Assembly: GCF_000378205.1 (NCBI RefSeq)
Contig: NZ_KB899419.1
Coordinates: 1 to 64,000 of the forward strand
Length of the DNA: 64,000 nucleotides
Source: Sediminispirochaeta bajacaliforniensis DSM 16054
Lineage (GTDB): Bacteria; Spirochaetota; Spirochaetia; DSM-16054; Sediminispirochaetaceae
Direction of reading: 5' to 3'
Below the pieces are notes generated by a model. That model saw only the letters and a list, made by a program, of their open reading frames with translations, did not search any database and was not told the DNA's origin. A program made the position numbers and the translations under genes. Below, in pieces: positions 6,456 to 19,876 of this stretch (within the stretch, counting starts at the first letter, position 1; every line of letters begins with the position of its first letter).

Positions 6456-7700
6456 ATGAAACGCGTTAGTACCTATCAACCCAATTACGATATGCAGTAC
6501 TATCTCAGGCGGCGTAACAACGAGATGAGCAGGGTCCAGAACCAGATTGGTAGTCAGAGCAGGATTACCAATCTCCGGGACGATCCCATTGCCGCCGCAC
6601 ATTCGGTCCGTTACAAATCGGCGGTCGACAGGCTTTCTCAGTTCGATCAGAATGCTGCAATGGTTCTTGATGAGGGAAGAATTGCCGAGAGTTACCTCAA
6701 GAGTGCCAACGATATACTCCACCAGGTCCGTGAACTCGCCGTCAAGGGAGCAAACGATACCTTGAACAAGGACGATAAGCGGATGATAGGCGGCGAGATT
6801 GATCAGCTCCTCAAGGAATTAGTCGAAATCGCCAATGCCCGAGGCCCTGACGGGACCAGTTTTTTCGCCGGTGACCGGACCATGAGTCCCGCCTATCGAG
6901 TCATCCAGGGAAGTCTTGACGGGGGAAGGAGCTACGGGGTCACAGATGTTGAATATATAGGGACCATTACCCCTCCGAAGGCTGAAGTAGGTTCCGGTAA
7001 CTATATTCAGGCCGGGTTTTCCGGTAACAATCTGTTCTGGGCGGAACAGCAGCAGCTCTTTTCCGGACGGGATGCTTCGTCCTATACCTTGACGGAAGAT
7101 TCTCTCGTTCGTATCGATAATGAATATGTCAAGCTTTCTGCCGGGGATAATATTCATGCAATCATTGCAAAGATCAATGATTCGGCAGCCGCTGTAAAGG
7201 CTTCTCTCGATCCGGTGGAAAATAGTCTTGTGCTCTCTACTACTTCGCCACATCAGCTTTGGCTTGAGGATGTCGGAGACGGACGGGTTTTGAAGGATTT
7301 GGGGGTTATCGCAGAGATAGGGAAGGCTCCCTACAATCTTGCCCGGGGAGCAAGCCTTTCCGGCGGCTCACTTTTTGATATGGTCATGAATCTGCGGGAT
7401 TCTCTTTTGAAAGGTGATACCATTGAAATCGGGGGAAGTGCTTTAAAGGGTATCTCCATGGCTCAGGACAATTTGATTGAAACAATGTCGGGTCTTGGTT
7501 CCAGGGATGAGCGTCTTCAGCTGATCCGTCAGAGGATTGCTCAGGAAAAACCTGAAATAGTAAACAGGGACAGTCAGGAAAACGATGTTGATTTGGCCGA
7601 AGCTATTACCGATCTTACAGCTCTGGAACAGAGCCATAAAGCAGCGCTCCAGACTGCCGGAAAGATACTTCAGCCGACCTTGCTTGATTTCCTCAGATAG
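6456..7700 (+). CDS. flgL: Flagellar hook-associated protein 3
   Basis: 414 aa. The N-terminal helix (about 1-140) contains the flagellin-like segment SRITNLRDDPIAAAHSVRYK, and the C-terminal helix has DLAEAITDLTALEQSHKAAL, both characteristic of FlgL. The central 130-330 region is beta-rich and longer than in enteric FlgL (about 317 aa in total). It forms the second junction ring, on which FlaB polymerises. RBS GGTGGAG precedes the ATG. Third gene of the late flagellar operon. Confidence 0.95.
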   Translation: MKRVSTYQPNYDMQYYLRRRNNEMSRVQNQIGSQSRITNLRDDPIAAAHSVRYKSAVDRLSQFDQNAAMVLDEGRIAESYLKSANDILHQVRELAVKGANDTLNKDDKRMIGGEIDQLLKELVEIANARGPDGTSFFAGDRTMSPAYRVIQGSLDGGRSYGVTDVEYIGTITPPKAEVGSGNYIQAGFSGNNLFWAEQQQLFSGRDASSYTLTEDSLVRIDNEYVKLSAGDNIHAIIAKINDSAAAVKASLDPVENSLVLSTTSPHQLWLEDVGDGRVLKDLGVIAEIGKAPYNLARGASLSGGSLFDMVMNLRDSLLKGDTIEIGGSALKGISMAQDNLIETMSGLGSRDERLQLIRQRIAQEKPEIVNRDSQENDVDLAEAITDLTALEQSHKAALQTAGKILQPTLLDFLR

Positions 7701-7731: not shown

Positions 7732-8190
7732 ATGAAAGTACAAACCAAGCCTTACGGCCTTATCGATGTTGATGCACGGCAATTGATCAGTTTTCCCTCG
7801 GGTATATTCGGCTTTGAAACCCTCAATCGTTATGTGTTGCTCGATGCCATCCAGCAACCTTTTTATTGGCTTCAGTCGATCGATGTCCCGGAAATTGCCT
7901 TTGTCCTGATTAGTCCCTTCATTTTTCGTCCCGATTACGATCCTGTCCTTTCCAGCGATGAGTACCATGAGATTGGGCTTGAAGGAAGCGATGACGATGA
8001 TCTATTGCTTTTCACCATCGTTACCATACCACCGAACAATCACAGCGGTATGACGGCGAATCTTCAGGGGCCTGTCATTATCAACAGAAAGACTAGGGTC
8101 GCACGGCAGGCAATCGCGGGCGACACAAACTGGCGTACCAAGCATCTGATCATGGATGAGTTTGCCGGGCAAAGGAATGCGGCATGCTGA
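7732..8190 (+). CDS. fliW: Flagellar assembly factor FliW
   Basis: 152 aa. FliW hallmarks are visible: [20 protein letters not shown] near the N-terminus, [16 protein letters not shown], and near the C-terminus [19 protein letters not shown]. In the known circuit FliW is an allosteric antagonist of CsrA: free FliW binds either unexported flagellin or CsrA, releasing flagellin mRNA from CsrA repression. RBS AGGAG lies 8 nt before the ATG. It overlaps csrA by 7 nt, a fliW-csrA pairing kept in many flagellated bacteria. Confidence 0.95.
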
Positions 8191-8435
8191 TCCTCGCACG
8201 GAAGGTCAACGAGCGGATTATCATCGGAGACTCAATTGAGATATCGGTTGTCGATATTCGTGGTGATCAGGTTAAGCTCGGCATAGAGGCCCCTCGGAAC
8301 GTCAAGGTGTATCGCCATGAGGTCTTTGAAGCCATACAGGAAGAAAACCGGGCTGCCGCTACATCGAATGTTACGGACCTCCCTGAAATCGATCTTTTTG
8401 CCGGGAAAAAAAAGAATCCTTCCGATAAGTCCTAA
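8184..8435 (+). CDS. csrA: Carbon storage regulator, RNA-binding translational repressor
   Basis: 83 aa. The N-terminal [16 protein letters not shown] and the segment [21 protein letters not shown] are the conserved CsrA core. CsrA is a small beta-swapped dimer that binds GGA-containing hairpin loops in mRNA leaders. The C-terminal tail (about residues 60-83) is longer than the 61-aa enteric protein, as usual when FliW is present. It is coupled to fliW by a 7-nt overlap. Probable targets are the two flaB leaders in this window (see the hairpins at 16355 and 17456). Confidence 0.96.
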
Positions 8436-15487: not shown

Positions 15488-16333
15488 TTAAAAAAGCTGA
15501 AGTACCGACTGGGTCTTTGTATTTGCCTGAGCAAGCATCGCGGTGCCGGCCTGCGTAAGGATCTGGTTTTTCATGTAGTCAACCATTTCCGAAGCCATGT
15601 CGACATCTCTGATTCGACTTTCGGCAGCCTGAAGATTTTCGGCCGCGATAGATACACCCTGGCTGGCTGTCTCAAAGCGGTTCTGATATGCGCCAAGATC
15701 GGCTCGCTGACGCGAGACCTGACGGAGGGCGGTATCAAGTTGGCCGATAGCCATATTTGCAGAGTCTACCGAGGTGATCGAAATCATCTCTTCGGTTCCC
15801 TGCGACCCCTGAAGTCCGAGCGCCTGTGCAGTCATGGTTCCGATAAAAATTCTTTCACTCTGGTCCATATTGGCCCCGACCTGGAACTGCATGACCTGTT
15901 CTCCATTCTGTGCAAAACGACCGGTAAGCATGTTCATACCATTGAACTGTGCATGGCTGGCGATTCTGTTGACTTCGTCGACCAACTGACTGACTTCGAC
16001 CTGAATCTGCATTCTGTCTTCGTCTGTATAGATGCCGTTTGCCGACTGTACCGAGAGTTCTCTCAGCCTATGAAGTATATCCTGAGTTTCCTGCAGGTAT
16101 CCTTCCGTTGCCTGGATGAAGGAGACACCATTTTCGATGTTCCGTGTAGCCTGATTAAGCCCCTTGATCTGGCCCCGCATTTTTTCGGATACCGCAAGAC
16201 CTGAAGCATCGTCGCCGGCCCTGTTGATACGCATGCCGGAGCTGAGCTTTTCGATGTTGCTTTGCACCTCATTGTTACGTACGCTAAGACTTCTGTTTGC
16301 GTACATGGCGCTCATGTTGTGGTTAATAATCAT
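15488..16333 (-). CDS. flaB: Flagellin FlaB, periplasmic flagellar core filament protein
   Basis: 281 aa. N-terminus [20 protein letters not shown] with [20 protein letters not shown], and C-terminus [20 protein letters not shown] ending in QSVLQLF, are the conserved D0/D1 helices of spirochaete FlaB. The variable centre is short, as expected for a filament enclosed in the periplasm. The frame extends upstream, but the ATG at 16333 is preceded by AAGGAGGG at good spacing, which sets the start. A CsrA-type hairpin lies about 28 nt before the start. Second of two tandem flaB genes. Confidence 0.97.
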
Positions 16334-16336
16334 AAA

Positions 16337-16373
16337 CCCTCCTTGATATCTAACGAAGGCATCCTTTGCCTTC
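16337..16373 (-). promoter_or_regulatory. Candidate CsrA-binding leader of downstream flaB (hairpin plus SD)
   Basis: On the minus strand GAAGGC-AAAGGAT-GCCTTC (16355-16373) forms a 6-bp stem with a 7-nt loop containing AAGGAT. The known high-affinity CsrA core is ARGGAU in a hairpin loop. The ribosome site AAGGAGGG follows at 16337-16344, giving a second GGA site that CsrA could bridge to. The arrangement matches that of the other flaB gene. Confidence 0.7.
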
Positions 16374-16468
16374 AACGATTCGGTGTCGTTTGAGAAGGAA
16401 AACAGAAGAATAAGTTCGCGCCTCTTCTGCCCCGTTCGCTTCCTTCATGCAGAAAAACGAGGAGTAAT

Positions 16469-16493
16469 CCCGACCTCCTAAAAGGAGATCGGG
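16469..16493 (-). terminator. Hairpin downstream of first flaB gene
   Basis: On the minus strand CCCGATCTCCT pairs with AGGAGGTCGGG (11 bp with one U-G pair, loop TTT). There is no immediate T-run (TTTTT appears about 14 nt later), so it may be a weak terminator, a processing site or an mRNA-stabilising 3-prime stem between the two flaB genes rather than a full stop. Confidence 0.5.
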
Positions 16494-16571
16494 TAACTCT
16501 ACGCTCCGACACCCGGAGGGATTGTTTTCAAAGATCCTACGGGATAGGATTACTGCTTATAGTGTAGTCCT

Positions 16572-17432
16572 CTATCCGAAAAGTTGCAAGACTGACTGTG
16601 TTTTCATGTTTGCCTGGGACAGCATAGCCGTTCCTGCCTGAACAAGGATCTGGTTCTTGGTGTATTTCACCATCTCATCGGCCATGTCGGTGTCTCTAAT
16701 CCTGCTTTCCGCCGCCTGGAGGTTTTCGGACGCGACATCGATGCCTTTCACCGCATGTTCGAGCCTGTTCTGATAAGCCCCGAGATCGGCCCGCTGCTTG
16801 TTTACGCTCTTGAGAGCGGAATCCAGGGTACCGATGGCCCGGTTTGCATCTTCGGGGGTCTCGATGGTTAAAATTTCGTTAGTCCCGATATTTCTCACAC
16901 CGAGTGCGGCACTGGTCATGGTACCGATAAAGACCCGTTCCCTCTGATCCATATTGGCCCCGATGTGGAACCACATACTGGCTGTAACGGTGTTTTCTCC
17001 CGATTCCCGGGCAAAACGGCCGGTAAGCATGTTCATCCCGTTAAACTGTGCATGGCTGGCAATTCGGTCGACCTCATCAACCAACTGACTAATTTCAACC
17101 TGGATCTGCATTCTGTCCTCGTCGGAGTAGATACCGTTGGCGGACTGTACCGAAAGCTCCCTCATGCGGTGCAGAATATCCTGAGTCTCCTGAAGATATC
17201 CTTCGGTCGACTGGATAAAGCTGATGCCGTTGGAGGCGTTTCTGCTTGCCTGATTCAAGCCTCTAATCTGAGACCTCATCTTTTCTGATACTGCCAGACC
17301 CGATGCATCATCGCCTGCACGGTTGATGCGAAGACCTGAAGAGAGCTTTTCCATGTTTTTGCTTACTGCGTTGTTACTAATCTTGAGGCGATTTTGTGAA
17401 AAGACAGCACTCATGTTGTGATTAATGATCAT
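16572..17432 (-). CDS. flaB: Flagellin FlaB, periplasmic flagellar core filament protein
   Basis: 286 aa. N-terminus [20 protein letters not shown] and C-terminal [20 protein letters not shown] ending in QSVLQLFG place it in the FlaB family. It is close to the downstream FlaB but differs most in the centre (about 125-195), with a 5-residue longer variable part, so the pair are paralogues rather than a very recent copy. Spirochaetes usually build the core filament from several FlaB types. AAGGAGGA precedes the ATG at 17432, and a sigma-28-like promoter and a CsrA-type hairpin lie upstream. Confidence 0.97.
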
Positions 17433-17438
17433 ATGACA

Positions 17439-17473
17439 TCCTCCTTGAATGTTACGGAAGCATCCTTGCTTCC
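17439..17473 (-). promoter_or_regulatory. Candidate CsrA-binding leader of upstream flaB (hairpin plus SD)
   Basis: On the minus strand GGAAGC-AAGGAT-GCTTCC (17456-17473) gives a 6-bp stem with a hexaloop AAGGAT, an exact match to the ARGGAU loop of the known CsrA SELEX consensus. The SD AAGGAGGA (17439-17446) supplies a second GGA. The distance from loop to start codon is about 30 nt. The stem sequence differs from that of the other flaB leader while the loop core is identical. Confidence 0.75.
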
Positions 17474-17570: not shown

Positions 17571-17621
17571 GTTTGACCTTTCCTCAGTCTAAAGCTTCGG
17601 CATGGAGAAGGTCAAACTTTA
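17571..17621 (-). promoter_or_regulatory. Sigma-28-like promoter of flaB with flanking inverted repeat
   Basis: On the minus strand TAAAGTTTGAC (17611-17621) is followed by GCCGAAGC (17594-17601), 16 nt after TAAA; FliA consensus is TAAA-N15-GCCGATAA. A perfect 10-bp inverted repeat, GTTTGACCTT at 17571-17580 and AAGGTCAAAC at 17608-17617, brackets the -10 and expected start and overlaps the -35, like an operator. The predicted leader is about 150 nt long. Apart from this promoter, the leader and its hairpin, the stretch 17474-17722 shows no gene. Confidence 0.6.
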
Positions 17622-19666: not shown

Positions 19667-19692
19667 AATAGTTCCAATCCCCTATAGTAAAA

Positions 19693-19862
19693 CCCGCGAT
19701 GCCGCTTGGGGAAAAAATCTCTTGAACCCAATGGTTCAAGTGGGTTTCCGCAACGTGGAATCCTGTCCATCCTGAAGACGGGCAATTCAACCACGAAATG
19801 AAGGAATCCCGTTTTGTATTTTTGTCCCAAGAGATTGACGATCCCCTCCCGTACATCGCAGG
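19693..19862 (-). ncRNA. ssrS: 6S RNA
   Basis: About 170 nt. The 5-prime end CCTGCGATG pairs with CATCGCGGG at the 3-prime end (9 bp, one G-U); inside it GGGGA pairs with TCCCC and AATCTCTTG pairs with CAAGAGATT, leaving a large central bubble. The 3-prime half contains CTTGAACC-N3-GGTTCAAG and GCGGCATC, segments shared with E. coli 6S RNA as I recall it. 6S RNA binds sigma-70 RNA polymerase as a promoter mimic in stationary phase. It follows zapA directly, the same neighbourhood as in enterobacteria. The ends are set by the closing stem. Confidence 0.92.
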
Positions 19863-19876
19863 AAAAGTATTCTCTT

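Follow-up and report, generated by a model that had tools for sequence, protein, structure and literature searches.

Spirochaete flagella contain several flagellins, and a locus with two flaB genes in tandem raises the question of how their expression is controlled and how the output of one is set relative to that of the other. The locus lies in a 64,000-nucleotide stretch of the Sediminispirochaeta bajacaliforniensis DSM 16054 genome, hereafter the window, whose minus strand harbors a first flaB encoding 286 amino acids (positions 16572 to 17432, ATG at 17432) and a second flaB (15488 to 16333, ATG at 16333). Each leader contains a CsrA-type hairpin with the sequence and position that the original prediction had given. 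In the first leader, GGAAGC-AAGGAT-GCTTCC (17456 to 17473, minus strand) forms 6 bp and exposes GGA in a hexaloop, a structure backed by covariation in its family. It is followed by the Shine-Dalgarno (SD) sequence AAGGAGG (17440 to 17446, minus strand), whose GGA is the second of the pair and lies 21 nt past the loop GGA. In the second leader, GAAGGC-AAAGGAT-GCCTTC (16355 to 16373, minus strand) closes a heptaloop with 6 bp, and the SD AAGGAGGG (16337 to 16344, minus strand) supplies both the second GGA of the predicted CsrA pair and the 3' strand of a helix, P0, described below. The distance of 28 to 30 nt to the ATG that had been assigned to these hairpins holds for the loop GGA (about 30 nt in both genes) and not for the end of the stem.

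CsrA-type hairpins and their conservation

The flagellin N-terminal domain was found in four proteins of the genome: the two FlaB proteins of the window, a protein encoded at 6456 to 7700 after flgN and flgK, which we read as FlgL, and a third FlaB encoded on another contig. The third flaB carries GGAC-AAGGAT-GTCC in the equivalent place, followed by AAGGAGG and the ATG, and a sigma28-like TAAACTTC-N11-ACCGATAT ends about 10 nt before its stem. The genome therefore has three flaB genes with the hairpin where two flagellin targets had been proposed, and all three elements are also present in a relative of the same genus assembled as one contig of 4,653,970 bases. In these leaders, 21, 22, and 23 nt, respectively, separate the loop GGA from the SD GGA. 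When a covariance model of the hairpin was searched against the 4.57-Mb genome, these leaders ranked 1 to 3 (38.9, 37.5, and 26.7 bits; next match, 21.8 bits), two of the three having been training sequences. Beyond the three flaB genes, matches throughout the genome were weak, the best having an E value of 0.07. This best match, a weak candidate for a CsrA target, consists of a GCGGA-GGATA-TCCGC hairpin and AAGGAGGA and precedes a gene for a citrate-lyase acyl carrier (L210, 1501 to 1534; G000:C20:72517-72550, plus strand).

The fliW and csrA genes expected in the window are indeed present there, each as a single copy and adjacent to the other, downstream of flgN-flgK-flgL. fliW spans 7732 to 8190 (plus strand; Pfam FliW, 7.1e-39; 5dmb_A, 2.9e-24), and csrA, the sole copy in the genome, spans 8184 to 8435 (plus strand; 2.3e-24; 5dmb_D, 2.9e-17) with L4 and R44 in its reading frame, as for a CsrA of the RNA-binding type. 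The closest solved relatives of the two proteins are two chains of a single CsrA-FliW complex entry, 5dmb. Among 148 related genomes, csrA and flagellin occurred together in 109, csrA alone in none, flagellin alone in 7, most of them incomplete assemblies, and neither in 32. The presence of csrA in 109 of the 116 flagellin genomes and in none of the 32 without flagellin indicates that CsrA travels with flagellin in this group. Two genomes with neither csrA nor fliW were considered as natural knockouts and rejected. Their flaB leaders still carry the hairpin, and since the adjacent genes are missing too and both are draft assemblies, gaps in the assembly may explain the absence. Autoregulation of csrA was also considered, as its ribosome site lies in a GGA-loop hairpin (8163 to 8205, plus strand), but this arrangement is not kept in csrA leaders outside the genus.

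Conservation was evaluated in 243 flaB starts from 197 loci, which gave 229 distinct leaders of sufficient length. The original prediction had staked itself on the loop GGA and the stem pairing being retained in relatives, and both clearly are: covariation is strong, and 79% of the 229 leaders have, apart from the SD, a GGA looped out by a stem of 5 or more Watson-Crick pairs, compared with 5.6% of dinucleotide shuffles. First-gene leaders chosen blind to pairing, only by a GGA 18 to 32 nt upstream of the SD GGA, had their seven stem positions paired in 94, 93, 97, 93, 90, 84, and 67% of cases. At least 5 consecutive pairs were formed in 85% of first-gene leaders, compared with 14% when the 3' arms were swapped between leaders. 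Across 44 diverse leaders, every pair showed changes on both sides, and 90.3% of the cells were paired, compared with 33 to 46% for slid partners (0 of 500 shuffles). When 104 leaders were mapped on a FlaB tree, their five inner pairs showed 46 same-branch compensatory changes, compared with 3 to 10 for slid partners; this is the only test corrected for relatedness, the other pairwise tests ignoring kinship. Moreover, in the hexaloop set, the first loop base was A in 95 of 96 leaders and the last was T in 72 of 96, and neither base, unlike GGA, had been used in the selection. The loop GGA and SD GGA are 21 to 27 nt apart in most leaders, a spacing that suits one CsrA dimer.

Several variants of the leader were observed. 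In seven leaders and others similar to them, 40 to 60 nt separate the GGA hairpin from the SD downstream of it, and this interval holds a second hairpin. Seven second-flaB leaders of Treponema have the hairpin in place with the loop GGA gone (AAGAAG, ATGAAG, AAGAGG, or ATGATG), which is a natural loss of the predicted CsrA site in one paralogue. Five first-flaB leaders of Treponema have in common two hairpins that lie after the sigma28 promoter and ahead of the CsrA hairpin, one long with a loop near GATGTAGCCTTGTAA and the other small and of the CTTCGTAGAAG type; these may represent further structured RNA. The CsrA-type hairpin was absent from two flaB leaders of one family with genomes of about 2 to 3.4 Mb, possibly Brachyspira, although the genomes of this family have csrA and fliW.

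Promoter and loop asymmetry of the tandem genes

The first flaB is preceded by a sigma28-like promoter, TAAAGTTT-N12-GCCGAAGC (17594 to 17621, minus strand), with a predicted leader of approximately 155 nt. Among first genes, 93% had a sigma28-like score of at least 9, a level reached by 14% of shuffles and by 6% of second genes. The occurrence of this pattern on first genes and not on second ones suggests one transcript, in which both tandem genes would be transcribed from the single sigma28 promoter ahead of the first. A GCCGAAAA motif directly before the first hairpin was rejected as a promoter because the RNA start would fall inside the hairpin; the conserved site is the sigma28 one at 17621 to 17594.

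The hairpin loops also differ between the two genes, the first being almost always a hexaloop and the second mostly a heptaloop. Of the 52 measurable pairs, 37 had the longer loop on the second gene, 15 had loops of equal length, and none had the shorter loop on the second gene, relatedness being ignored in this count. The side of GGA on which the extra base sits, 5' or 3', varies with the species (GGA at loop offset 2 in 20 cases and at offset 3 in 16), suggesting that loop length is kept and not a fixed sequence. It is possible, although we do not consider it probable, that the difference is a functionless legacy of two ancestral paralogues, as the loop data all derive from a single tandem locus with shared ancestry and the sign test takes no account of kinship; yet the length stays at 7 while the stems are fully turned over and the extra base moves from one side of GGA to the other.

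The RNA module between the tandem genes

The intergenic gap of the tandem flaB genes measures 218 to 477 nt in all but one species. In the window, it contains a three-way-junction RNA of about 120 to 135 nt (16380 to 16515, minus strand) whose minimum free energy (MFE) has a z score of -5.8; the median z score of the junction region in 68 species is -3.9. On the minus strand, helix P1 is formed by GGTGTCG and CGACACC (16513-16507 with 16388-16382), P2 is a long hairpin (approximately 16506-16454), and P3 has an internal loop, GAACGG (16437-16432), and an apical loop, GGCGCGAA (16422-16415). An alignment of the gap across species exhibited the same P1, long P2, and P3, with GAACGG as the internal and GGCGCRA as the apical loop.

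A covariance model from 5 sequences (R2) recovered this structure in other lineages but did not pick up the element in the genome of the window, whereas the broader R3, built from 22 matches that did not include the window, did so at 16515 to 16380 (minus strand; 50.2 bits; E value of 9.4e-9 for the window and 6.7e-7 for the genome; next match in the genome, 22.9 bits). With an E value of at most 0.1, R3 matched 42 of the 148 relatives, once each, some of these having been in the training set. Each of the 30 best junction loci ends 42 to 88 nt ahead of the start of a flagellin gene; 29 of these loci come after a flagellin-like C terminus. The weakest R3 match, in a 1.14-Mb T. pallidum-like genome, lies elsewhere and is probably due to chance. 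In the junction alignment, which was fitted to the model and has 1 of its 22 rows off target, all 37 pairs change on both sides, and 89.5% of the cells are paired, compared with 41 to 49% for slid partners. Nothing between 15400 and 17800 reached the gathering score in Rfam 15, and the three-way junction was not described in the literature searched. It covaries strongly, has matches in many Spirochaetia, and seems to be an RNA family that has not been described before. Elsewhere in the window, a 6S RNA was recognized at 19687 to 19867 (minus strand; Rfam RF00013, 63.8 bits).

The MFE fold of 16520 to 16330 included a helix that had not been sought, in which CCCUCC, just before P1, pairs with the GGAGGG of the second-flaB SD. 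This helix, P0, joins an anti-SD strand (AATCCCTCC, 16515 to 16523, minus strand) to 16342-16337, so that its two strands flank both the junction and the CsrA hairpin. In 70% of species, the place of P0 was taken by a strand with complementarity to the SD at a score of at least 18, compared with 3% of shuffles. The anti-SD changes together with the SD, as in GUGCAUUCAUGU with ACAUGGAGGCAC, UGUUUUCCAUGA with UCAUGGAGGACA, and ACCCUUCGUG with CACGGAGGGU, and for 40 of 54 anti-SDs the SD of the same species paired better than those of other species (p 9e-6). First genes did not show an anti-SD (11%, compared with 8% of shuffles), the same search giving 76% and 21%, respectively, for second genes. 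P0 and CsrA would compete for one SD, that of the second flaB. With the anti-SD paired to its own SD across the junction, RNA structure would close the second ribosome site in addition to CsrA.

A boxA-like motif, GATCTTTGAAAA (16525 to 16536, minus strand), follows the first flaB, and GWTCTTTGAMAA stands directly upstream of the anti-SD. The core TCTTTGA occurred in 56 of 69 intergenic regions and in 2.4% of shuffles; of 70 first-gene leaders, not one had it. The boxA of rRNA and suhB reads GYTCTTTAANA (PMC5725501); the spirochaete GWTCTTTGAMA likewise precedes a structured untranslated stretch but departs from boxA at one or two positions. A T. pallidum-like 16S leader lacked the motif over the 400 nt upstream, the remaining spirochaete rRNA stretch being masked. 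UCUUUGA was also considered as a second anti-SD, being complementary to UCAAGGA; yet it is invariant while SDs vary, so recognition by a protein fits better.

The original prediction had treated the second leader as a counterpart of the first, and this is correct for the hairpin; the second leader otherwise differs in lacking a promoter, in its longer loop, and in the large conserved RNA, including an anti-SD, that lies upstream. The second flaB would be under a longer cis-regulatory RNA consisting of the boxA-like motif, the anti-SD strand, the three-way junction, the CsrA hairpin, and the SD, in which P0 probably adds a second lock to the ribosome site and through which the output of the second flagellin would most likely be set relative to the first. 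Candidates for opening P0 are a small molecule or other ligand, a protein, Nus factors at boxA, a cut between the genes, or none of these; FliW has been reported as a weak binder of the hag leader (PMC6529632). We moderately favor the view that the module represents a cis-regulatory RNA of a new class, confined to spirochaete tandem flagellins, which gates the second flagellin through the anti-SD helix and thereby sets the flagellin ratio in the periplasmic flagella.

Two other functions seem rather unlikely, neither more so than the other. The module could be a riboswitch whose junction binds a small molecule and whose P0 is the expression platform hiding the SD: a covarying junction with conserved unpaired GAACGG and GGCGCRA loops, linked to a covarying anti-SD/SD helix, has an aptamer-plus-platform layout, and the module was found once per genome in the genomes tested. 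However, a second, mutually exclusive fold was not identified, and the module is bound to one gene pair, whereas riboswitches usually precede several metabolic genes. The module could instead serve processing or stability, with a nuclease cutting between the genes and the structure protecting the second mRNA and setting FlaB ratios. Its very stable fold and its place between two apparently cotranscribed genes, the second without its own promoter, are consistent with this, but a mere stability stem needs neither conserved unpaired loops nor an anti-SD.

Probable CsrA control and comparison with known systems

CsrA-FliW control of flagellin is the best reading of the flaB hairpins, which we regard as predicted CsrA sites because the GGA hairpins covary, their spacing suits a dimer, and csrA never occurs without flagellin in the 148 related genomes. 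The CsrA consensus, RUACARGGAUGU, has as its core ARGGAU in a short hairpin loop (PMC7492729). On the flaB mRNA, a CsrA dimer would bridge the GGA of the hairpin loop and that of the SD, blocking ribosome entry, and flagellin export would free FliW, the product of the neighboring gene, which would in turn remove CsrA. Of the partner-switch circuit that had been proposed, the sites, their covariation and spacing, and csrA and fliW were all found, and from these we infer CsrA binding, repression, and relief by FliW. It is very improbable that the hairpin is just a standby site or general stabilizer of an mRNA with high expression and is not bound by CsrA, despite its normal distance from the SD and a folding of 78- to 82-nt leader windows no better than that of shuffles for two of the three genes, since such an element would need neither the ARGGAT loop of the CsrA consensus nor a fixed GGA-GGA spacing, and CsrA binds the flaB leaders of Leptospira (PMC8668096) and represses Borrelia FlaB, as cited in PMC8668096 and PMC9481697 (Sze 2011). 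CsrA-FliW control by itself is a known mechanism, and a CsrA-type flaB hairpin is well supported by the comparisons above. The explanation as a whole, with a CsrA operator for each flaB, relief by FliW, one promoter, and a second gene under a longer cis-regulatory RNA with P0, appears to us highly probable; the Treponema second-flaB leaders whose loop has lost GGA, the two leaders without the hairpin, and the csrA overexpression result from Leptospira interrogans given below speak against it.

What is new beyond the CsrA hairpin is the tandem asymmetry and, above all, the module of junction plus anti-SD, which may prove to be a new RNA class. The leaders offer a testable answer to how the flagellin ratio is set, namely, a common CsrA operator, a different second loop, and an extra RNA lock on the second gene alone. 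Neither the phylum-wide covarying hairpin, nor the tandem asymmetry, nor the junction was found in the literature searched.

FliW-CsrA-flagellin control is known in Bacillus, Campylobacter, and Clostridioides (PMC6529632, PMC4894983, PMC8523840). The closest systems in phylum and target gene are those of Borrelia and Leptospira, which also share a site at the SD and the order flgN-flgK-flgL-fliW-csrA (Sze 2011 as cited in PMC9481697; PMC8668096); as represented in these two sources, that work differs in naming sites near single genes. Sites near the SD are mentioned for Treponema denticola flaB1 and flaB2 (PMC9481697; PMC8668096). In Leptospira interrogans, flaB transcripts go up when csrA is overexpressed (PMC8668096), suggesting that the sign of the regulation may vary. 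Bacillus subtilis hag and Clostridioides difficile fliC likewise have two CsrA sites, of which the second lies at the SD, and a fliW-csrA pair, and the upstream site of C. difficile was predicted as TGACAAGGATGT, nearly the spirochaete loop described here; they differ in having one flagellin gene and external flagella, with no intergenic module reported (PMC6529632, PMC8523840). Campylobacter jejuni flaA resembles the spirochaete leaders in its upstream loop GGA and ribosome-site GGA, 21 nt apart (the optimum is quoted as 18 nt), its compensatory stem changes, its antagonist fliW, and the absence of a known csrB-type RNA (PMC4894983). Unlike them, it has two hexaloops, a 45-nt leader, and a single gene (PMC4894983), whereas the spirochaete system described here has an apparent two-flagellin operon plus a third locus, a longer second loop, and a three-way junction with an anti-SD.
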